A DNA stretch of 64,000 bases, taken from positions 124,001 through 188,000 of the forward strand of contig NZ_CP041025.1 of the NCBI RefSeq assembly GCF_006385135.1, read 5' to 3'. This document shows, in pieces, positions 22,713 to 32,750 of the stretch. The notes under the pieces are model-generated. The model saw only the letters and a program-made list of their open reading frames with translations, was not told where the DNA came from and did not search any database. The stretch is from Paremcibacter congregatus. Its GTDB lineage: Bacteria; Pseudomonadota; Alphaproteobacteria; Sphingomonadales; Emcibacteraceae. The translations under genes and the position numbers were made by a program. Numbering within the stretch: position 1 is the stretch's first letter; each line of letters opens with the position of its first letter.

Positions 22713-24116
22713 ATGACCCAGAAAACAACGACCCAAGACCCGCAGAACAGCAGCACCACCGCGCCGCTCGGCACATCCCCGAAGCCCAAGCGTCTGCCGC
22801 GCTATACCAGCTACCCGACGGCGCTGGAATTCAGCGATCTCGATGCGGGACTCTATGGCCAGTGGCTACGGGACCTGCCCGAGGACGCCCCGGTCAGCCT
22901 CTATTTCCACATTCCCTTTTGTGAGAAGCTCTGTTGGTTCTGCGGCTGTTTCACCAAGATCACCAGCAATTACGACCGGGTGCACCGCTATCTCGCTATC
23001 CTGATGCAGGAAATTCACCTGGTCGGGGCCGAGACGGGCCGTAAAAAAGTCAGCCATATTCATTTTGGCGGTGGTTCGCCGACGATCATTGACGCGGATA
23101 GCTTCACCGAGCTGATGGATCTGGTGCGTCAAACCTTTGATATCCTGCCGGACGCCGAAATCGCGGTGGAGATTGATCCGCGCACCTGTTCAGAAGAAAA
23201 AGTCGCGGCCTATGCCGAAAGCGGCGTTAACCGGGTCAGCCTCGGCATTCAGGATTTCAATCCGGACGTTCAGGAGGCCATCAACCGGGTTCAGCCCGAC
23301 GCCTTGATCGCGGAAAATATCGCCTGGTTTCGGGCGGCAGGCATCAGCGAGATCAATTTCGATCTGATTTACGGCATGCCGCGCCAGACCCTGGCGACTA
23401 TTGAGGAAACCGTGCAGAAGACCGCTGAATTCAGGCCGTCGCGCATTGCCCTGTTCGGTTATGCCCATGTGCCGTGGATGAAAAAGCACCAACAGATGAT
23501 GGACAAGCACCATCTGCCCGCGCAAAACGAGCGTCAGGCCATGTTCGATCTGGCCAGCACAAAATTACAGGAGAGCGGCTATCACGCCATTGGCCTTGAT
23601 CATTTCGCGCTGCCCGGAGACAGCCTGCTCACCGCCCGCGCCGAGGGGCACCTCAAGCGCAATTTTCAGGGCTATAGCGCCGACCCGGCGACGACGATGA
23701 TCGGCTTCGGGGCTTCGGCCATCGGCTCGCTGCCCGGGGGCTACGCCCAGAACAGCCCGGACCTGAAAACCTATGCCGAGACGGTCGAGGCCGGGGATAT
23801 TCCCGTGCGCCGTGGCCTGCGGGTCAGCGCGCTGGATGTGATGGTGCGCGAGGTGATCTCGACCCTGATGTCCACGTTCGCCGTTGATCCGTACGCCATT
23901 GCCGCGGCCCACGGGGTGGATTATGATTTTGCGCGGGAAGCCCAGGATCTAGACCGGCTGGTGGCGGTGGGCTATCTCGCCCGGGCGGGTAATGAGTATG
24001 CCCTGACCGAGGCGGGACGGCCGTATTTGCGGGCGATCGCCACCCTGTTCGACCATTATTTCCCCCAGCAGCATTCCGACATCATCACCCGCTGCGTCCA
24101 TGAAAGCGAAGGCTAG
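22713..24116 (+). CDS. hemN: Oxygen-independent coproporphyrinogen III oxidase
   Basis: Radical-SAM enzyme that oxidatively decarboxylates coproporphyrinogen III to protoporphyrinogen IX without O2, for haem synthesis. The 467-residue length is typical of true HemN. YFHIPFCEKLCWFCGCFTKI contains the CxxxCxxC cluster ligands plus the extra Cys characteristic of HemN, and HIHFGGGSPT and GIQDFNPDVQEAINRVQP are conserved. An FNR-type box precedes it. Its last 17 codons and downstream sequence are duplicated about 5.3 kb away at 29382-29433, which marks the edge of the accessory region. Confidence 0.96.
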   Translation: MTQKTTTQDPQNSSTTAPLGTSPKPKRLPRYTSYPTALEFSDLDAGLYGQWLRDLPEDAPVSLYFHIPFCEKLCWFCGCFTKITSNYDRVHRYLAILMQEIHLVGAETGRKKVSHIHFGGGSPTIIDADSFTELMDLVRQTFDILPDAEIAVEIDPRTCSEEKVAAYAESGVNRVSLGIQDFNPDVQEAINRVQPDALIAENIAWFRAAGISEINFDLIYGMPRQTLATIEETVQKTAEFRPSRIALFGYAHVPWMKKHQQMMDKHHLPAQNERQAMFDLASTKLQESGYHAIGLDHFALPGDSLLTARAEGHLKRNFQGYSADPATTMIGFGASAIGSLPGGYAQNSPDLKTYAETVEAGDIPVRRGLRVSALDVMVREVISTLMSTFAVDPYAIAAAHGVDYDFAREAQDLDRLVAVGYLARAGNEYALTEAGRPYLRAIATLFDHYFPQQHSDIITRCVHESEG

Positions 24117-24177
24117 GGTCATGGGTCATTGTGGGCAGTGGAATAAAAAGTAAGCTAGTATCGTAGTTCCGGATTCA
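24065..24177 (+). repeat. Direct repeat copy A: hemN 3' end plus dispersed repeat
   Basis: The stretch 24065-24116 (end of hemN including stop) matches 29382-29433 at 49 of 52 positions. The following about 50 bp are a diverged copy of the dispersed repeat that begins GGTCATTGTGG and runs to a CCGTAATTCCGG-like end. This is the left member of the pair enclosing the AT-rich accessory genes. Confidence 0.85.
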
Positions 24178-24194
24178 TAAAAAGGCGGGACTTC

Positions 24195-24710
24195 ATGAAA
24201 TACATATTCCGATTTATTTTCACATTATTTTTATTGAACTTTTCCACTATGGCATTCGCTACGGAAAATAAAACAGTTTTGATCGTGTTGCCGGCAATTG
24301 GTTTGGTATGGGAATGACGCGACGTGTGCTGTCCAGTTCACCACTATTAGCTTTTCCAAGGGCCATACAAGGGCGCTTTTTAATTATTCCGACGGCATGG
24401 TGCTGATGGTAAACCAGCGCTTGACTCCAATTATTCTGTTATTGGTTATGATGAAGCGTCAATTACAATGTCGTTGGATGGAGCAAAAAGAACGACCGAA
24501 TTGGGTAAGCCCGTTAAATGGGTGCTTGTCTTGGTAGAAGACGACATTTGGGTTTGGCGTATGCAACATTGGCCTGAAACAATAGATAATAGAGGCAAAG
24601 AGATATGGCCGTATCGTCGCATTAGATGTGAAAGCAGGCAGGAAAATGTTATATGTTCGCTTCCGATCCAAAGCGGAGACTTGAGAAGAAGATATACTTA
24701 TTTTGCATGA
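24195..24710 (+). pseudogene. Degenerate gene for a small exported protein
   Basis: After a ribosome-binding site (AGGCGGG), an ATG at 24195 encodes a clear signal peptide, MKYIFRFIFTLFLLNFSTMA ending FA-TE, but the frame stops at 24317 after 40 codons. Further open stretches continue in other frames, including LGKPVKWVLVLVEDDIWVWR near 24490-24550. This looks like one gene of roughly 170 codons broken by several frameshifts. No family recognised. It is AT-rich, unlike hemN upstream. 24717-24811 holds nothing recognisable. Confidence 0.55.
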
Positions 24711-24811
24711 AAAAGGTTACGTTGAAAACGACCGGCACCGTAGTTCTTGATGCTGAGAATAAATACCTAAATCATGCGGTGTTGCTGTATTTATTAAAGT
24801 ACTGGTATCAG

Positions 24812-26158
24812 TCATTGACGCCCCCTATATAAATTTTCAAGAATTTCCAATCTTACTTTAGCCGTTTTATCATCCTGTGCTATTGTCTTCATAACCTCTT
24901 TCATCCCCCTTAAGGCCCGAAACCATAAAACAGGAGAAACTTCATACTTTATTCTCCTCATAGCCTCGCTATAAACCCCAAGTTCATTGTGAATTAATTG
25001 AGAGTATTCTGGTTCACTTTCTACTACCGAAGTACGCATTGCCCTTAAAATATCAGCTTGAAAAATCAACAGCTCTACGGAAAATAAGTCATCACAGTTA
25101 TGACCTTCTGAAAACCTCACCCCTGAATTTCTGAGATCTTGCCCAATAGCCCGTTGGATTTGCGACATTTTCTTGAATTGATTATCAAGAGTTGCTCTCA
25201 AATAATCCAATAGCATTTTTTGAAAAAATAATTCTCTTATCGGCTTTTCAAACAATAAATATCTATAAGCGCTCAGTGTTGCAGGTTCCAAAGCTAACGA
25301 AGAAAAATATTCAACCTTCTCCTCACCATCAATATATTGAGTAACAGCATCTATTTCCTTTTCCACCGGGACAGATAAAGCTTCAAAATTATGGATAGCC
25401 TTTTCAAGAAATTTTAGATCATTCTGGCTTACCGCCTTCTGTGCCAGAGCTATTTCCAGATACCCAGTATATTCCCAATAGAAATATTCTTTACTCTTTG
25501 GTAGAAGTCGTTCTTTATAAATTTTTGTAAACTTAATATTGCTGCTATGCCTATAAGGCAAGATATCTATATGGATATGCAAAAAGCTCCTCAGACGAGT
25601 AAAAATGTCTATTGCCCTGTCCAATGATGTAACATCTGCCGTCATTTCCCAATGACGATAATATAATTTTCCGAGTCTGGAAATTCCTTCTATGCGATCC
25701 CTGACGATAGACTTCTCTATAAAGCCCATATTGTTATTGGGGCTGGTATCGCCAACAGATTGATTCAAAAAATCTAATAGTTTAGTCTGAAAGTTAACCA
25801 CATAGGCAAAATCCAACGCAGATCGCAAATCATCTGCCTGATTGGTCAAATATTTATAGGTTGCGGCCCGAAGAATATCGTCAGCAGAAAAAGAAAGTGA
25901 TCTTATATCGCCCACACTATTACTGGGTATGTATTTATCAATAACATCTTGGATGTCTGATGCCTCAATTAATTCTTTGGTAAGATCAAACACTACCTCC
26001 CTCGACCACAAAAGAGCTATTAAGGAAGTGTCAGGGCTTCTTTCATCTAGTTCACAAATAGTTCTTCCGTGGTAGATCTGCGGGCTGGCGATAAGTTGAT
26101 TGTGCCCTAAGCTAAACAGCCATACACCCATAAAAGCAGAAATAATCAAACTCTTCAT
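24812..26158 (-). CDS. Uncharacterised exported helical protein (AT-rich orphan)
   Basis: 448 residues, not recognised. An N-terminal signal sequence, MKSLIISAFMGVWLFSLG, with possible cleavage near LIASPQ, suggests export. The rest is almost wholly alpha-helical with repeated amphipathic stretches (for example residues about 95-120, 150-190, 225-260), reminiscent of TPR-like solenoids but without a canonical TPR motif. Cysteines are few (in TICELDE and GHNCDDLF). Base composition is far more AT-rich than flanking core genes, suggesting transfer. Its start overlaps the stop of the 26155 gene by 4 bp (ATGA), so the two are translationally coupled. Confidence 0.75.
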   Translation of the reverse strand: MKSLIISAFMGVWLFSLGHNQLIASPQIYHGRTICELDERSPDTSLIALLWSREVVFDLTKELIEASDIQDVIDKYIPSNSVGDIRSLSFSADDILRAATYKYLTNQADDLRSALDFAYVVNFQTKLLDFLNQSVGDTSPNNNMGFIEKSIVRDRIEGISRLGKLYYRHWEMTADVTSLDRAIDIFTRLRSFLHIHIDILPYRHSSNIKFTKIYKERLLPKSKEYFYWEYTGYLEIALAQKAVSQNDLKFLEKAIHNFEALSVPVEKEIDAVTQYIDGEEKVEYFSSLALEPATLSAYRYLLFEKPIRELFFQKMLLDYLRATLDNQFKKMSQIQRAIGQDLRNSGVRFSEGHNCDDLFSVELLIFQADILRAMRTSVVESEPEYSQLIHNELGVYSEAMRRIKYEVSPVLWFRALRGMKEVMKTIAQDDKTAKVRLEILENLYRGRQ

Positions 26159-26427
26159 CCCCCAAGCTCCATGACTTTGCGTGTGCCCGTTGCGGGGTCG
26201 GTATGGTGGAACTTGAACTTTTTGTCTTTGAAGGAGCTCCCGGAAACATTTAAACTCATCATATCGGCGAGCATCTGGTCGACCATCTTTTTTTCCGGCG
26301 CTGCGCTTGGGCTTTCCTCGTCCGCGCTTGGATGGGTCGTCGCCAAGAGAGGCTTTCCGTGGCGCTCGGCCTGCGGTGTCCTTCTCACGCGACGGTTTAT
26401 GAAACTCGAGAAAGGGTTATTCCACAT
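26155..26427 (-). CDS. Small uncharacterised protein coupled to the exported orphan
   Basis: About 90 residues, starting MWNNPFSSFINRRVRRTPQA; GGGGG 8 nt before the ATG at 26427 favours that start over the ATG at 26442. The N-terminus is basic, the middle rich in Pro/Ser/Ala and acidic residues, and the C-terminus reads FKDKKFKFHHTDPATGTRKV. No signal peptide or family is recognised. It is the first gene of a two-gene unit with the 448-residue exported protein (4-bp overlap). Confidence 0.6.
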   Translation of the reverse strand: MWNNPFSSFINRRVRRTPQAERHGKPLLATTHPSADEESPSAAPEKKMVDQMLADMMSLNVSGSSFKDKKFKFHHTDPATGTRKVMELGG

Positions 26428-26513
26428 CACATCTGCCCCCATATTTGTATGCGCTATTTATCTTACCGTGAGTTTAACCACAGTGGCCGGCCCTTGGCAA
26501 GGCCAGGATGAAA

Positions 26514-26592
26514 GTCATTGTGGTCCATAGAATAAAAGTAAACTGGCACCGTAATTCCGGACTTGGTCCGGGGTCAATTTTGATATCACGCG
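26514..26592 (+). repeat. Dispersed repeat, fullest copy
   Basis: Contains GTCATTGTGGTCCATAGAAT, then CTGGCACCGTAATTCCGG, a hairpin CCGGACTTGGTCCGG (7-bp arms CCGGAC/GTCCGG region) and TTTTGATATCACGC. It lies between the 95-residue gene and the propeller gene. Related copies are at 24124-24177, 27821-27880, 28527-28571, 29441-29496 and, inverted, 30529-30551. Confidence 0.8.
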
Positions 26593-26686
26593 CCTTCCTT
26601 CCTTGTCCTTCCAAACCCGAGCAGACTGAAGCCCAGCAGCGCCAAATCCCTTGAAATTTGCGGTAATGCTCTTGTAACCGGGCGTC

Positions 26687-27562
26687 TTATTTTGGCCGGA
26701 GCGTTTCAATAATCTGGGCATCTACCCAGAATATATCTACATTTTCGTAATTATCTGAACCCATATTCCGATTGAAAAAAAGATATTTGCCGTCTGGTGT
26801 CACGCTCGCAGCCGCTTCCCAGGCGCCTGTGTTTATCTTGTCGCCCATATTGACGGCCGCCCCCCACGATCCTTCTTTCGTGCGAAAACTGATATAGATA
26901 TCAGAACCGCCAAATCCGCCCTCTCTTCTGCCATCCCAAATAATATAAGATTCATCTGGTGCAATGAAGGGGTGGGCATTGTATTTTCCGGTGTTAATCT
27001 CTTTGGGGAGAGGTTTTGGCGCTTCACGTTTGCCGTCGACGAGCCGAGAATAGCGGATAATGCCATCACCTTCTTCTGAGCCTACTTCGTCAAACACATA
27101 GGTGCCTGTGGATGATGCCGTAAGGCGCATGATGCGGAGATCTTCGAACAGGGCGCCAAGGTTTTTCCTCTCTGACCAGCCCGTGTCGGTCCGCTCCATA
27201 TAGCGCTTGCCTAGATGCATGGTCTTGCCATCGGGCGCGATGAAGGGTTGGCCGACCCTGGGCGAGACCACTTTTTCGTGCCATCTGTTCTGTTTGTTTT
27301 GAAAAACAACAAACTCTTGTTTCTCAGTGACCGCATTGGCTCTGATGTAATAGATCTCTTTCATATTGGGGGTGAAGACAACACCATATTCCCAGCCCTT
27401 CGTTGAAATAATCCCGGGGGCGAACGCTTCAGGGATCAGGCCCGGTGGTTTTTGCCCGAGATAAGGGCCTTCGAGGACGGGAAGAGCATCTTGACCATAA
27501 CTATTGCCGCTCACCATCAGCATCGACAGCAGCAGAACCATCGGGGCATACACACGCTTCAT
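26687..27562 (-). CDS. Exported PD40/WD40-like beta-propeller protein
   Basis: 291 residues with a signal peptide (MKRVYAPMVLLLSMLMVSGN, likely cut near SYGQ). Repeated blades contain PD40-type segments: VGQPFIAPDGKTMHLGKR, NAHPFIAPDESYIIWDGRR and AASVTPDGKYLFFNRNMG, as in TolB-like propellers. GGFGGSDIYISFRTKEGSWG is typical of PD40 proteins of unknown role. Probably periplasmic, binding or sensing a ligand; no enzymatic motif is evident. It has its own 5' region (27563 onward) within the accessory segment. Confidence 0.78.
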   Translation of the reverse strand: MKRVYAPMVLLLSMLMVSGNSYGQDALPVLEGPYLGQKPPGLIPEAFAPGIISTKGWEYGVVFTPNMKEIYYIRANAVTEKQEFVVFQNKQNRWHEKVVSPRVGQPFIAPDGKTMHLGKRYMERTDTGWSERKNLGALFEDLRIMRLTASSTGTYVFDEVGSEEGDGIIRYSRLVDGKREAPKPLPKEINTGKYNAHPFIAPDESYIIWDGRREGGFGGSDIYISFRTKEGSWGAAVNMGDKINTGAWEAAASVTPDGKYLFFNRNMGSDNYENVDIFWVDAQIIETLRPK

Positions 27563-27958
27563 AATGTTCTCCTTTTTTAAGATAACAAACGCCTAAACGT
27601 CCTCACCATGCAGTAAAGAAATGACCGGTGCAATGCACAACCCTATTGCGGTGAAGCGTTATAATTATCCGATGGAAGGTAAGTTCAGATCGCGCAATGG
27701 CTTATAGATGATGGCGGACGTCGGCATAAATCACGGGCGATGACGGGGCATCTGATCACCACCTCTCCGTTGAGGAGGGCATCCTTGTTTCAGTGAGGAC
27801 TGATGGCCGGTATGGTGACAGGGCATTGTCGCCCTGAGAATATAAAGTAGACGGGCACGGCGATACCCATGTCAATTTGGGTTTTACTTTTTTTGGCCTT
27901 CATCCCATAAACCATGGTACTATACTCTCTCGATGGATAATGTTTTCGGGAGGGAATA
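27563..27958. other. Gene-free divergent region with degenerate repeat
   Basis: No credible gene on either strand. 27821-27880 is a strongly diverged same-orientation copy of the dispersed repeat (GGGCATTGTC then ATATAAAGTAGACGGGCACGG), in which AGGGC/GCCCT forms a short hairpin at 27820-27835. The remainder must hold the promoters of the divergent propeller and GFA-family genes; no clear elements are identified. Confidence 0.5.
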
Positions 27959-28480
27959 ATGACCGCGCCAACAGAAATACATGAAGGGGGCTGTACCTGC
28001 GGCCATGTACGGTACAAACTCACGTCAGAGCCCCTTATCGTTCATTGTTGCCATTGCCACTGGTGCCAACGCCAAACGGGATCAGCATTTGTGGTCAACG
28101 CCCTCTATGAAGCCACTCATGTCGAGCTGTTACAAGGTCAGGTTTCTGAAGTTACGATGCCCTCTCCCAGTGGCAACGGCCAGAAAATTAGCCGCTGCCC
28201 GAAATGTCAGGTCGCCGTCTGGAGCAACTATTATATGCAAGGCATTAAAGAGGGCATCCGGTTCATTCGCGTCGGGTCACTTGATCACCCCGCTGACCTG
28301 CCCCCCGACGTTCATATCTTCACAAGATCCAAGTTGCCTTGGGTTATTTTGCCCCCCGATGATCTTGCTGTTGATGTCTTCTACGACTATGAAACCACAT
28401 GGACCGCAGAGCATCTCGAGCGGAGAAAAGCTCTCCTCGCTGCGGCGTCAAAAGAGCCCTTTGAACACCAGATATCCTGA
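27959..28480 (+). CDS. GFA-family (glutathione-dependent formaldehyde-activating-like) protein
   Basis: 173-residue Zn-binding protein of the GFA/CENP-V fold. Metal-ligand cysteines are in GGCTCGHVRYKL (CxCG), VHCCHCHWCQRQTGSAF (CxxC) and SRCPKCQVAVWSNY (CxxC). The founding member accelerates S-hydroxymethylglutathione formation, but most homologues are uncharacterised. A repeat copy at 28527-28571 follows it directly. Surrounding genes give no functional clue. Confidence 0.88.
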   Translation: MTAPTEIHEGGCTCGHVRYKLTSEPLIVHCCHCHWCQRQTGSAFVVNALYEATHVELLQGQVSEVTMPSPSGNGQKISRCPKCQVAVWSNYYMQGIKEGIRFIRVGSLDHPADLPPDVHIFTRSKLPWVILPPDDLAVDVFYDYETTWTAEHLERRKALLAAASKEPFEHQIS

Positions 28481-28526
28481 GTGTATGTGATTTTTTGCCT
28501 GATAGATGGGATGACGCCACGTCCGC

Positions 28527-28571
28527 CCGGACTTGATCCGGGGTCCATTTTGATATCACGCACCGTAATTA
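28527..28571 (+). repeat. Dispersed repeat, partial copy after the GFA gene
   Basis: Starts at the hairpin CCGGACTTGATCCGG, continues GGTCCATTTTGATATCACGC, and ends GCACCGTAATTACG. It shares hairpin and tail with the copy at 26514-26592 but lacks the GGTCATTGTGG half. A TACGTAATTATACGTA AT-rich palindromic stretch follows. Confidence 0.7.
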
Positions 28572-28600
28572 CGTAATTATACGTAACCGCTGATAGGCGA

Positions 28601-29113
28601 CTATATATGCGCATGCACAAAGCCGTTAAGTTCAGAGGTGGTTTGAATGATGTATACCGATTTATGAAGAGATACATTGTTCAATTTCTGCATAAAGTTT
28701 TTGTTCCAAAATTCTGGACATCGCCGCAAAGTTTGATAGCTTTGCAAAGTTCCTTTAACTATGGAACTGCCGTCAGGCCAACCTTCTGGCTTTTCGACTA
28801 GCCCTTTGAGCAGTCGCTTTGTTACAAACCAATAACTGGTGACATAAGGCAGATCTATATAGATCAACGTATCAGCCGCCTCCAGGCGCTTGTTAAATAG
28901 CGCCATTGGCCCTAATCCATCGATTATCCAGCGCGCAGAAGACAGTATATTTTCATGCGCCTCAACGAACGCCTTTCGGTCTATTTGTTCACCATTTTTC
29001 TTATATAAAATGGAGTCCAGCTGGTGCAATTGTATGCCCGTAGCTGACGCTAAATCCCTGCTTAACGTGGACTTGCCGCTGCCGGGTTTCCCAAAAACTG
29101 CAATTTTTTTCAT
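28601..29113 (-). CDS. P-loop kinase-like ATPase (adenylate-kinase/topology-modulation-like)
   Basis: About 170 residues beginning MKKIAVFGKPGSGKSTLSRD, with Walker A GKPGSGKST and the later acidic segment DTLIYIDLPYVTSYWFVTKR. This resembles small adenylate-kinase-like NTPases annotated as FlaR/topology-modulation proteins. The start at 29113 is chosen for a strong AAGGAGG 5-7 nt upstream. Length matches the family (about 170-185). Substrate is unknown. It lies inside the region bounded by the hemN-end repeats. Confidence 0.78.
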   Translation of the reverse strand: MKKIAVFGKPGSGKSTLSRDLASATGIQLHQLDSILYKKNGEQIDRKAFVEAHENILSSARWIIDGLGPMALFNKRLEAADTLIYIDLPYVTSYWFVTKRLLKGLVEKPEGWPDGSSIVKGTLQSYQTLRRCPEFWNKNFMQKLNNVSLHKSVYIIQTTSELNGFVHAHI

Positions 29114-29381
29114 TCTACCTCCTTCACATCCAACATCCCCTGAGGTGAAAACAAAAAAACCCACCTCTCCGGGGTGAGTTTGACAAATTTAAAGCGTATC
29201 AACATTCCCACCATTCCTATGGAATGGGGATAATTCGTGCAGCCTGCTGTATTATAAATTGTTTCATAAAAACATCATCTTATAGGAATAACCTATTGTC
29301 AATCGGTATGTGGATAAGAAGTGTTTATCACAGTATCTCTACTTTAACCGGATCAATCACAATGATCTCTTCCTTAGCAGA

Positions 29382-29496
29382 CCAGCTGCATTCCGACATT
29401 ATCACCCGCTGCGTCCATGAAAGCGAAGGTTAGGATAACGGGTCATTGTGGTCCATAGAATAAAAGTAGGCTGGCACCGTAATTCACCGTAATTCC
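29382..29496 (+). repeat. Direct repeat copy B: hemN 3'-end remnant plus dispersed repeat
   Basis: Encodes a second HSDIITRCVHESEG-stop without the rest of hemN, 49/52 identical to 24065-24116, followed at 29441-29496 by the dispersed repeat (GGTCATTGTGG, CTGGCACCGTAATTC, and a second CCGTAATTCC). The upstream 29165-29381 is AT-rich with no recognisable gene. This is the right boundary of the 5.3-kb segment. Confidence 0.85.
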
Positions 29497-29519
29497 AACG
29501 TCTTGTTATGTGTGCTGTA

Positions 29520-30491
29520 TCATTTTGCCTTAATGTATTTCCTAACACTTCGCGCCCATGCATCAACAACGTAAACAGCTCCATCCATCCCCAGAGCGAT
29601 GTCATGACCAAGGTTTTTCTGGTCTGAATCATCTTCAGCGCTAAAGCTATTAAGTACGTTACCATCCGTATCAAGTATGACGACCCTCGAACGTGTATTA
29701 TCAGGCTGATCTCCACCATCAATAATAAATACCTTGTCGTCACTTGATACGGCAACGCCATACGGTCGACCAACTTGCTCTACCTTCCATTCTGAAATAT
29801 ATGTGCCTCTATTGTCAAAAATCTGCACTCTCGAATTTCCCCTATCGGCTACGTAAATACGATTATTGCTTGTGGAAATTCCATGAGGAAGGTCAAATTC
29901 TCCGGATTTATCACCAGGACTTCCCCACTGCATTTGAAAAGTTCCTGAGGAATCGAATTTAATTACGCGCGTATTATCATAGCCATCACTTACGTACACA
30001 CTTCCATCTTCTAGAATGCTGAGATCAGAAGGTAATGCAAAGTGAGTTTTATCCTTTCCAAGAACACCAGCTTCTCCAATGCTTAAAACTAATTCGCCAT
30101 CATGTGAGAACTTATGAATTTGCTGTGAACCAACGTCTGTGACCCAAACATTGTTTTCTTTGTCTACTGAAAGTCCGTGCGGCATGGTAAAAAGATCTCC
30201 ACCCCAACTATTTTTCAGCTCTCCCGTAGCACCGTCAAACATAAGTACAGTATGTTCACTAATTTTCTCTATAGGAAAGGGCTCAACCCATTCACGACTT
30301 GCTCGGTGGAAAATAAAAACATGATTATGAGAATCGACTGCTACTCCCGTCGCCTGTCCCATAATGAAGTTTTTTGGAACATCAGGCCAACTAGCGACAA
30401 CCGAATAAGTTTTATTCGAATCTGCAATTGCAAAATTTGTAAGGATAGATATGAATAAAAATATAGGCCAATAACAATATTTGGAAAACAA
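29520..30491 (-). CDS. Exported NHL-repeat propeller protein (peptidyl-hydroxyglycine lyase-like)
   Basis: 323 residues with a signal peptide (MFSKYCYWPIFLFISILTNF, cut near AIA-DS). At least five NHL blades are visible: GQATGVAVDSHNHVFIFHR, MPHGLSVDKENNVWVTDVG, LPSDLSILEDGSVYVSDGY, LPHGISTSNNRIYVADRG and GRPYGVAVSSDDKVFIIDGG. The pattern resembles bacterial homologues of the amidating lyase PAL, whose catalysis is not established for most bacterial members. The gene is AT-rich and is bracketed by opposite-facing copies of the dispersed-repeat core (29471-29486 and 30529-30551), so it may have moved as a unit. Confidence 0.82.
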   Translation of the reverse strand: MFSKYCYWPIFLFISILTNFAIADSNKTYSVVASWPDVPKNFIMGQATGVAVDSHNHVFIFHRASREWVEPFPIEKISEHTVLMFDGATGELKNSWGGDLFTMPHGLSVDKENNVWVTDVGSQQIHKFSHDGELVLSIGEAGVLGKDKTHFALPSDLSILEDGSVYVSDGYDNTRVIKFDSSGTFQMQWGSPGDKSGEFDLPHGISTSNNRIYVADRGNSRVQIFDNRGTYISEWKVEQVGRPYGVAVSSDDKVFIIDGGDQPDNTRSRVVILDTDGNVLNSFSAEDDSDQKNLGHDIALGMDGAVYVVDAWARSVRKYIKAK

Positions 30492-30528
30492 ATAACTACT
30501 CCTTTATGACATAACGCTTTGCTAATTT

Positions 30529-30551
30529 GGAATTGCGAATTACGGTGACAG
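30529..30551 (-). repeat. Inverted copy of the dispersed-repeat core
   Basis: On the minus strand this reads CTGTCACCGTAATTCGCAAT, matching CTGGCACCGTAATTC at 29471-29485 in the opposite orientation. With that copy it forms an inverted pair around the NHL-repeat gene. Confidence 0.65.
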
Positions 30552-30629
30552 TTGACTCTTATCAACAGTTTTTATTACGATGTCATCGTAACTTCTTGAT
30601 CTGAAACCTTACCTTCACAAGAAAGGTGG

Positions 30630-30857
30630 CTATTTCTTCAGACGCACCCCAACGCCACCCCCATTTTCAGGGATGAACTCTACGCCGGCGGCTTCAAAGG
30701 TTTGTCGTAGGACTATAAGTGTCGCCTTTTGAGGAACGGTTTTATCTTTCTCGAAGTTGCGGATCGTCACGCTGCTAATTTCTGATGCGCTAGCAAGATC
30801 ATTTTGCGACCATTGAATAAGACCGCGGGCGGCGCGGCATTGAGCTGATTTTATCAT
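30630..30857 (-). CDS. Small XRE-family helix-turn-helix regulator
   Basis: 75 residues: CRAARGLIQWSQNDLASASE and VTIRNFEKDKTVPQKATL form a Cro/CI-type HTH (about residues 7-60), followed by LRQTFEAAGVEFIPENGG, a tail typical of small alphaproteobacterial XRE regulators. It is transcribed away from a palindrome at 30933-30945 and from the structured leader and genes to its right, so it probably represses itself and the rightward transcript. Confidence 0.85.
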   Translation of the reverse strand: MIKSAQCRAARGLIQWSQNDLASASEISSVTIRNFEKDKTVPQKATLIVLRQTFEAAGVEFIPENGGGVGVRLKK

Positions 30858-30932
30858 TTTAAAAATTTAACCGTTCTTCTTAAAAATAACAACTCTTTCT
30901 ATTTTCGCTTGACTTTTCTCTTCCTATAAACG

Positions 30933-30945
30933 ACGATATTATCGT
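30933..30945. promoter_or_regulatory. Palindrome between XRE gene and rightward leader
   Basis: ACGATATTATCGT is palindromic apart from its centre, 76 bp upstream of the XRE start, and about 20 bp downstream of a TTGACT (-35-like, 30909-30914). Its size and symmetry fit a Cro/CI-type dimer site overlapping a rightward promoter; assignment to the adjacent XRE protein is inferred. Confidence 0.55.
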
Positions 30946-30995
30946 TATTCGGAAGTAGTTTTGTTCTCAGATTTAATATATCCCGAATACTAAGC

Positions 30996-31029
30996 GGACC
31001 ATGAAGGTGCTCTAACACCCGCATGGCCC
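30996..31029 (+). ncRNA. Candidate structured 5' leader hairpin
   Basis: GGACCATG (30996-31003) pairs with CATGGCCC (31022-31029) with a single A/C mismatch, and GGTG (31006-31009) pairs with CACC (31016-31019) around the loop CTCTAA, giving about 11 base pairs. It lies on the putative rightward transcript 30 nt before a consensus AGGAGG ribosome-binding site. The leader also contains a four-codon ATG-AAG-GTG-CTC-TAA reading frame inside the stem. A regulatory RNA element is plausible; no known class is assigned. Confidence 0.45.
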
Positions 31030-31059
31030 TGACCACACCAACCTGATTAGGAGGCTGAC

Positions 31060-31218
31060 ATGGCTAGCCAATGTCTTAGCACAGATGATCTGTGCTTGTT
31101 AACCAACAACTTACCCACCCGTGTAAAATTTACGGATATGTCCCTCTATCGTCCCACAGAAGTCTGGATTCCCGCCTGCGCGGGAATGACGACTGGGTGT
31201 GAAGGGGAAAGTGCATGA
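31060..31218 (+). CDS. Small ORF with strong RBS, fused into a REP sequence
   Basis: 52 codons starting MASQCLSTDDLCLLTNNLPT after a consensus AGGAGG (31049-31054). The last third (EVWIPACAGMTTG) is translated from a REP-type palindrome at 31168-31187, so the natural C-terminus may have been replaced by REP insertion. Its TGA overlaps the ATG of the downstream gene (ATGA), giving possible translational coupling. No family recognised. Confidence 0.5.
   Translation: MASQCLSTDDLCLLTNNLPTRVKFTDMSLYRPTEVWIPACAGMTTGCEGESA
31168..31187. repeat. REP-type extragenic palindrome
   Basis: ATTCCCGC and GCGGGAAT arms with a short loop, within the common proteobacterial repeat context TCTGG-palindrome-GACG. 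It lies 28 bp before the start of the HEPN-like gene, close enough to influence its translation. Confidence 0.75.
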
Positions 31219-32204
31219 AATTCTCCCTTGCCCATCTGCCGCAGCAGGTCCAGACGGACCTCCGGCATATCGCCGATTTTCTGCTCCGGCGGGCCATCCC
31301 CACCCAAGACCCCCGGGATCGTTACACCCCGAGCCGCATCCGCCATATCATCCTGCACGGCTGCTTCACCGAGGATCACTGGACTCCGGACAGCAAGTTG
31401 CGCCCCGGCGAGTGCGCCTATAGCTATAACCTGATGGTCATCGTCTCGGCCCACCTCTGCGATATCCTCGCCCCGCTCGAGCGCGCCGTGGCAGAACTGA
31501 ACCGGTCCGGCAAGGTGGGTTTTCCCGTGCGGCTGGGCTTCGCCGACACCAAGGGCCGCATTGACCGCAAATTGCGCAACGGCTATCTCGCCTATGACGA
31601 AATTCAGGTCCGGGGGACGGTGATCTATAGCCGGGGAGAGATCACCGAAGACCTGTTTCAACGGCCCGAGCGCCCGCCGGCGACGACGCATCTCGCCCGC
31701 GCCCAGGGCTATTATGATCACGCCTTTCCCCTTGCCCGCCGGTTTCTCGCCGGGGCGTGGTCCTATGCCGAAAAGGATCGCGGTGCAGCGGCCCTGATGC
31801 TCAATCTCGCCGCCGCCGAGGCCTATGAGGCGCTGATGGTGGTGCATATCCTGAAATATCCGCCAAGCCGCCCGCTGGCTCACTTGCGGGAACTCGCCGA
31901 AAGCCTGCATCCGGAACTGGGTCTGATCTGGACCGGGCGCAAGGCGGCACAGAGCTTTGATCGTTTGACCCGCGCCTTTTGTGAGGTGCGTTTCCGCCCA
32001 GACTATGCAATCACGGCGGCGGAACTGAACGTGATGTTCGGTCAGGTGGAGGAGCTGCACCGCAGTGTCGCCCACATCTGCCGCCTGAAGTTTGACGCGT
32101 TAAAAGCCGGAAGCCGCGCCCGGCCCGGTAAGGACGGGCTGGCGATCGTCCGCGACGCGCTCGCGCCGCCGAAAGACGGGGGGCTGGATAAAGGGGAGGG
32201 GTAA
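31215..32204 (+). CDS. Nucleotidyltransferase-like/HEPN-like two-domain protein with degenerate NTase motif
   Basis: 329 residues. The N-terminal half resembles a Pol-beta-type nucleotidyltransferase: RHIILHGCFTEDHW occupies the place of the usual GS(x)ARGDW motif, and AYSYNLMVIVS the place of SDxDLLVIV. The two catalytic acidic residues appear lost (Tyr/Asn), so it is probably inactive. The C-terminal half (about 165-290) is helical with AAALMLNLAAAEAYEALMVV and ELNVMFGQVEELHRSVAHIC, like HEPN domains, although a clear RxxxxH ribonuclease motif is not seen. Similar fusions occur in proteobacterial accessory regions. The last about 35 residues are low complexity. Confidence 0.62.
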   Translation: MKFSLAHLPQQVQTDLRHIADFLLRRAIPTQDPRDRYTPSRIRHIILHGCFTEDHWTPDSKLRPGECAYSYNLMVIVSAHLCDILAPLERAVAELNRSGKVGFPVRLGFADTKGRIDRKLRNGYLAYDEIQVRGTVIYSRGEITEDLFQRPERPPATTHLARAQGYYDHAFPLARRFLAGAWSYAEKDRGAAALMLNLAAAEAYEALMVVHILKYPPSRPLAHLRELAESLHPELGLIWTGRKAAQSFDRLTRAFCEVRFRPDYAITAAELNVMFGQVEELHRSVAHICRLKFDALKAGSRARPGKDGLAIVRDALAPPKDGGLDKGEG

Positions 32205-32244
32205 AAAAGACGGAGGATTGCCGGGGGACGTTACTTTTCCCGCT

Positions 32245-32703
32245 TCATTTTTCAGGTTTCACCGCCCGGGTGGTGAGTTTGGTCAGCAGATGATCAAGCT
32301 GGGTAAGCTCGGCTTGGTCTAGGGACGCAAGAAGGTCGCTTTCGTAGCCGACCACAAGCGGTTCAATCTGATGATAGATTTCCTCACCCTTGTTGGTGAG
32401 ATTCAGCACCGAGCGGCGGCGATCCTGCTGAGAGAAGATTTTGTCCACCAGTCCCTTGTCGCAGAGACTTCTTACCGCGCGGCTGACGGCGACCTTGTCC
32501 ATGGCCGTGTTGTCGCCAACTTCCGCCGCCGACATGTTGGCGTGACGTTTGAGATTCGCCAGAACTTTCCATTCATGGGGGGTCAGATCAAATTTTTCTC
32601 CATAAAGACGGGCCAGGTCCTGGCTGATGATATTGGTCAGAAAGGACAGTCTGTAAGGCAGGAAGCTCTCCAGAACCAGGGGTTTAGCGTCTTTGTCTGC
32701 CAT
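32245..32703 (-). CDS. MarR-family regulator, probable controller of the tyrosine-type degradation genes
   Basis: 152 residues. The winged helix (about 40-110) contains LTPHEWKVLANLKRHANMSA, DKVAVSRAVRSLCDKGLVD and the wing FSQQDRRRSVLNLT. It is divergent from the fumarylacetoacetase operon, and the shared promoter region contains a perfect 16-bp palindrome at 32751-32766. This matches the layout of MarR repressors of homogentisate-type pathways, so an aromatic acid or its cleavage product is a likely effector (inferred). ATG at 32703 is chosen over the adjacent 32706. Confidence 0.88.
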   Translation of the reverse strand: MADKDAKPLVLESFLPYRLSFLTNIISQDLARLYGEKFDLTPHEWKVLANLKRHANMSAAEVGDNTAMDKVAVSRAVRSLCDKGLVDKIFSQQDRRRSVLNLTNKGEEIYHQIEPLVVGYESDLLASLDQAELTQLDHLLTKLTTRAVKPEK

Positions 32704-32750
32704 CATTTATAATCCATTGCTTTACTTAATTGCTTAAATTTCTTGAAATA

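Follow-up and report, generated by a model that had tools for sequence, protein, structure and literature searches.

Genes and features of the hemN/marR junction

The locus lies in a 64,000-nt stretch of the Paremcibacter congregatus genome, referred to below as the window; the source genome consists of a single contig of 4.19 Mb. Between hemN and the convergent gene marR, the window holds a series of genes and several copies of a dispersed repeat, listed here as TIRs (Table 1). The earlier note on this DNA had described, behind hemN, a broken exported-protein gene, a pair of genes of 448 and 90 residues, a PD40 propeller, a GFA protein and a P-loop kinase. All of them are present, and only the size of the shorter member of the pair, orf95, had to be corrected to 95 residues.

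Table 1. Position of the genes, repeats and RNA element at the hemN/marR junction (coordinates of the window)
Feature	Position	Strand	Evidence or remark
hemN (oxygen-independent coproporphyrinogen oxidase-like, 467 aa), left neighbour of the insertion	22713..24116	+	Radical_SAM PF04055, 5.8e-23
hemN 3' end, 52 bp, source copy	24065..24116	+	pairwise match
Full insertion, 8.13 kb	24117..32244		hemN-marR stop distance compared with relatives
TIR c1, decayed, directly behind the hemN stop	24125..24169	+	profile 19.1 bits, whole-genome E 0.007
Pseudogene, signal-peptide start, then stops and frame breaks	24196..24710	+	sequence; 6 stops on translation
orf448, exported, no family match	24812..26158	-	family search
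orf95, overlaps the start of orf448	26155..26442	-	conserved C-terminus KFKFHHTDPATGxRKVMELGG
TIR c3	26514..26557	+	profile E 2.2e-7; 95% to the 29442 copy
Palindromic CCGG module CCGGACTTGGTCCGGGGTC / CCGGACTTGRTCCGGGGTC	26557..26594	+	directly behind TIR c3
Exported PD40 beta-propeller protein	26687..27562	-	PF07676, 2.1e-13; 65% homologue elsewhere in G013
TIR c4, degenerate	27840..27867	+	profile E 0.045
GFA-domain protein	27959..28480	+	PF04828, 1.7e-29; 72% homologue elsewhere in G004
P-loop kinase (PRK08118-like 'DNA topology modulation protein')	28601..29116	-	NCBIfam 1.6e-24, below curated cut-off
hemN 3'-end copy	29382..29433	+	49/52 against 24065-24116
TIR c2, contiguous with the hemN-tail copy	29442..29485	+	profile E 6e-6
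Second partial tip ACCGTAATTCC	29486..29496		directly after TIR c2
Exported NHL-repeat protein	29520..30491	-	PF01436, 1.3e-27
TIR c6, inverted relative to the other copies	30536..30563	-	profile E 2.7e-5
Small HTH regulator/antitoxin-like protein, 75 aa	30630..30857	-	HTH_3 6e-5; Y4mF antitoxin 7.5e-7, below cut-off
Putative structured leader/antisense RNA, SymR-like (or R1162-like), preceding orf329	30993..31065	-	RF01809, 36 bits, E 5.8e-4, gathering 61
orf329, nucleotidyltransferase/HEPN-like	31215..32204	+	PDB 4nqf profile match 3.8e-12, C-terminal half
marR, right neighbour of the insertion	32245..32706	-	51-73% identity, syntenic in relatives

Models of defence systems gave nothing convincing for the genes of the island, and no homologue of orf448 was found in congeners or plasmids. 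Relatives of orf95 are located at 898.4 kb and 3393.4 kb of the source genome, each before a different membrane or exported gene; this arrangement looks like a cassette in which a constant C-terminus precedes a variable membrane/exported gene. A short ORF of the orf95 type, with the same C-terminal motif, also occurs near a RAYT gene in G018 (L142).

The unit formed by the HTH gene, the RNA element and orf329 (30630-32138) recurs at 898.56-900.06 kb (87%), where it adjoins two TIRs and a CCGG palindromic module. The gene order at 898 kb is membrane gene, orf95-like gene, HTH gene and orf329. In the window, orf95 and the HTH gene come in the same order but are separated by 26514-30563, which has TIRs in inverted orientation at its two ends and contains the PD40, GFA and kinase genes, the copy of the hemN tail and the NHL gene. 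Comparison of the two gene orders suggests that this TIR-bounded stretch entered an older island. The cargo of the island is a mosaic.

Several copies of orf329 are found in the source genome (at 899134, 2765311, 1671377, 1031367, 4020082 and 3866172 of contig C1); the paralogues are at 90%, 68% and more distant, and two copies lie within 2 kb of a TIR. SymR-like elements are also found at three other loci of the source genome and congeners, with R1162-like matches at two more. The leader is conserved up to about 89% in G012 and G015, where the proteins are 42-46% identical, and it is recognisable in G013 and in G045, which belongs to another family of the order. Compensatory changes were not observed among the compared copies. 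The leader and orf329 possibly represent a toxin-like family controlled by an antisense RNA.

Extent of the insertion

The synteny of hemN is kept in all congeners that have the hemN locus; in the nearest of them, about 77% of the hemN residues agree with those of the window gene. The stop codons of hemN and marR are 0-40 nt apart in 11 of these 13 congeners, most of which have the two genes overlapping or nearly so, and also in all four sampled genomes from other genera of the family, whereas they are separated by 8,131 nt in the window. Since the junction is empty in these 15 relatives, the insertion corresponds to 24117-32244, and it lies directly behind hemN, as the earlier note had proposed. 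The same note had taken the two hemN ends as the bounds of the insertion, a 5.3-kb AT-rich block ending at 29496. The AT-richness of this block is real (36-44% GC for orf448 and the kinase gene and about 50% for PD40 and GFA, against 54-64% for the flanks), but its end is not: GC is low over most of 24.1-31.0 kb, beyond 29.5 kb, and the sequence to the right of 29500, with the NHL, HTH and orf329 genes, is also foreign, up to 32244. The right edge, at marR (32245), is thus 2.8 kb beyond the copy of the hemN tail, and in none of the relatives does the sequence beyond 29500 stand behind hemN. It follows from the extent of the insertion that the hemN-tail copy is internal, and is neither an attR nor the displaced native 3' end of hemN.

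One congener, G009, carries an unrelated 4.6-kb insertion at the same junction (L060 5508-10090, 46% GC), with genes for a sigma factor, a FecR-like and a receptor-like protein (named from their translations, no family search); no copy of the hemN tail is present in it. In another congener, G011, no marR was found within 10.6 kb of the hemN locus. The hemN/marR junction is permissive for insertions, of which the genus shows at least two.

Nature of the dispersed repeat

The repeat unit has about 44 bp and a conserved core of about 27 bp, ATAAAAGTAAACTGKCACCGTAATTC, located in the window at 24142, 26531, 27840 (degenerate) and 29459 on the + strand and at 30563 on the - strand. About 10 TIRs are present in the 4.19-Mb genome, five of them within the 8.1-kb island (binomial probability about 7e-12, with copies treated as independent). 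The palindromic module behind TIR c3 has a second copy at 28527-28564 and a third at 897.48 kb, behind another TIR, so that it directly follows a TIR tip in two of the three listed cases. The TIR was not found in viral contigs, nor a match to TIR c3 in plasmids; in contigs representing one genome per species, the exact TIR 24-mer was detected only in six stretches of MAG contigs.

In the congeners G008 (C103) and G010 (C75), the TIR of the window bounds, in inverted orientation, a gene for a 227-aa Y1_Tnp transposase of the RAYT branch (PF01797, 6e-11; NCBIfam REP_Tyr_transpos, 4e-22 and 78.6 bits, 1.4 below the cut-off of 80). The ends of these elements are ATTAYGGTGACAGTTTACTTTT on the left and AAAAGTAAAC(T/C)GTCACCGTAAT on the right, with the stop codon of the transposase gene inside the right TIR, and the window copies match the end core with few changes. 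A 55%-identical transposase of another genus (G017) is bounded by TIRs containing the exact GGGGACAG. This motif, of the GGGGWSAS type, has been described for TIRYTs (PMC3733652, PMC6006769), which have been equated with subclass 2.1, or RAYT group 1 (PMC6006769); its counterpart in the window TIRs is GGTGACAG, with one mismatch. Judged by its sequence, the dispersed repeat is the TIR of a Y1/HUH transposon of TIRYT type (RAYT subclass 2.1-like), and the window repeats are a new repeat family of this type.

At 4018.0-4018.2 kb, a 138-bp copy has retained its two TIRs together with the initial and final bases of the transposase gene, and is thus a deletion derivative. No match to a RAYT-type transposase gene was found in the source genome (G000), which has only two short IS200-type TnpA genes. 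The mobiliser, which the earlier note took to be missing or to have acted in trans, is therefore lacking in the window and, within the reach of the searches, in the whole genome. Solo right TIRs in relatives have one common right edge and left edges that vary across unrelated sites: they extend 7, 11, 14, 19, 27, 39, 46 or 54 nt into the transposase tail, compared with 71 nt in intact elements, and they often have iterated tips. Tandem iteration of the tip (for example repeated CACCGTAATTC or units of 27-32 bp) was also noted at L111, L115, L116 and L077, in relatives and other MAGs.

Other assignments of the repeat were considered and rejected. Membership of IS200/IS605 (TnpA_IS200) is at odds with the presence of TIRs and with a core in which no stable hairpin is conserved. 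An IS30 end was discarded because the genome has a single IS30 fragment, which adjoins the deleted TIRtron. By inspection, core-site motifs of integron attC sites are missing, and the genes are in both orientations. At the edges of the block, no tRNA or Rfam element was found.

Duplication of the hemN 3' end

The recurrence of the last 52 bp of hemN at 29382-29433, and the continuation of both hemN ends into the same repeat, had already been pointed out, and both observations were confirmed. Identity is 49/52, with differences at offsets 5, 18 and 48, of which the last two are C-to-T changes, synonymous in the hemN frame. Homology extends past the hemN stop codon, 24065-24169 matching 29382-29485 over 105 columns (84.8%, E 1.4e-26). 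The right end of this duplication is the shared repeat tip (24169/29485), and the copy abuts the second partial TIR tip at 29486-29496. No duplication of the hemN tail was found in 32 other genomes of the family. An apparent similarity to the hemN tail next to TIR c3 (26499-26513, AAGGCCAGGAT) is more readily accounted for by the region upstream of orf95, found again at 3393.4 kb.

The divergence between the two copies is uneven, with 3 changes in the 52 bp of the hemN tail against 13 in the 53 bp of spacer and TIR (Fisher p 0.013). The TIR changes are mostly on c1, the TIR behind hemN, which is more decayed than c2, the TIR of the tail copy; moreover, c2 shows 95% identity to the 26514 copy versus about 80% to c1. 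As the changes are mostly on the hemN-adjacent copy, the TIR of the second copy may have another source. Selection on hemN explains the conservation of the tail, but not the closeness of c2 to the 26514 copy.

Origin of the hemN-tail copy

Our proposal builds on four observations: there is an insertion, the repeat has been identified, TIRs in relatives keep their right edge while the left one varies, and the genome lacks the transposase gene. The hemN tail was probably picked up when the neighbouring TIR was copied. The insertion at the convergent hemN/marR junction is a mosaic studded with solo TIRs of a TIRYT-type transposon, and a TIR would have come to sit directly behind the hemN stop codon. 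This TIR would later have been copied 5.3 kb downstream, beside an existing TIR tip; copying would have begun 60 bp upstream of the TIR unit, thereby including the last 52 bp of hemN. Such an event would be similar to one-ended copying, in which the TIR tip fixes the right edge and the left one is arbitrary. The transposase would have acted in trans or have been lost since. The tail copy is best read, from the edges of the compared repeats, as a left-extended member of the series of TIRs with a fixed right and a variable left edge. The order of events, and a transposase rather than general recombination as the copier, are what we infer. To an island with solo TIRs in which the hemN tail was co-copied with a TIR in a one-ended-like event, we assign a probability of roughly one half. 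Counting against it are the uneven divergence of the two copies, with a possibly separate source of the second TIR, and the fact that only one hemN-tail event is known. None of the other TIRs of the genome was found to have an identifiable host-gene tail, and no second transduction was recognised.

The main competing explanation needs no transposase for the copying step, and involves replication template switching or non-reciprocal recombination between TIRs. From a break in the TIR near 29442, a strand would have invaded the TIR behind hemN, been extended leftwards through the hemN end and been rejoined at 29381 without homology. The two sites, separated by 5.3 kb, share a TIR unit of about 45 bp that points the same way in both, and the closer relationship of the 29442 TIR to the 26514 copy than to the hemN-adjacent one looks as if this TIR was pre-existing; the uneven divergence also fits a tail copied onto an existing TIR, and the iterated tips of the relatives could also be due to slippage. 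However, recombination between TIRs alone leaves the common right edge and the differing left edges in relatives unexplained, and we consider it rather unlikely.

A still less probable source is the hemN of another strain, from which a hemN-TIR-NHL fragment, starting 52 bp inside hemN, would have been joined into the island. Of the three tail differences, two are synonymous, like those that distinguish alleles of hemN, and the TIR of the copy shows less decay than the one following the resident gene; nevertheless, no searched genome has an NHL gene behind hemN, which is itself the place where homologous recombination would be expected to act, rather than a site 5 kb away.

The earlier note considered an insertion that used the hemN 3' end as its target. 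In the form of a site-specific integration that left the two hemN ends as attL and attR, this reading has become very improbable. In its favour, foreign genes lie between directly repeated copies of a gene 3' end, and the hemN/marR junction is the insertion site in G009 too. However, the copy is internal, the DNA to the right of the supposed attR being foreign and absent behind hemN in all relatives, and the G009 insertion entered without a hemN-tail copy. Moreover, there is no recombinase in the examined region of the window and no integrase among the ORFs of the island. An assembly or chance artefact can practically be dismissed for a single-contig genome and copies that differ by 15% over 105 bp (E 1e-26).

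Discussion

TIRYT/RAYT enzymes are very common and are often thought to be domesticated, and the spread of their repeats is poorly understood. A TIR copy tagged with the end of a host gene reveals both the source of the copy and a left edge outside the element, which makes the mode of copying testable. The locus clearly exemplifies an island assembled around solo transposon ends, which accumulated with cargo at a convergent gene junction. The co-copied host gene end, a single event, is the one feature that could be new.

In a wider reading, the Y1 transposases of TIRYTs would perform one-ended copying of their ends, keeping the tip fixed and leaving the far end arbitrary, and could in this way duplicate adjacent host gene ends and build cargo islands tip by tip. 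We put this generalisation forward tentatively, with more doubt than conviction; if it is true, the hemN tail would be a transduction of host sequence by this class of transposases. TIRYTs are not known to follow a target-site or one-ended transposition rule, nor to be active in a one-ended way.

Among known systems, the TIRYTs/TIRtrons share with our repeat a Y1_Tnp gene between TIRs, dispersed solo TIRs that also form dimers or clusters, and a motif resembling GGGGWSAS, with one mismatch in the window and exact in the G017 relative (PMC3733652; PMC6006769). By contrast, our genome lacks the transposase gene, its TIRs cluster within a single cargo island, and one of the copies is joined to the end of a host gene. 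RAYT/REPtrons and REPINs (E. coli TnpA_REP type) belong to the same HUH/Y1 superfamily and also involve non-autonomous repeats presumed to be mobilised in trans; unlike REPINs, the repeat described here has TIRs as ends and about 10 copies instead of hundreds, and no GTAG-tagged palindromes were seen. The islands that target gene 3' ends by means of tyrosine integrases resemble the locus in having foreign genes beside a gene 3' end and a duplicated end, but here there is no integrase and the duplicated end does not bound the insertion. Finally, IS91/ISCR elements and Helitrons undergo one-ended transposition with capture of adjacent genes. The likeness lies in the footprint expected of them, with one fixed end, a variable other end and co-copied neighbouring host sequence, whereas TIRYTs are a different HUH family and have no oriIS/terIS pair.
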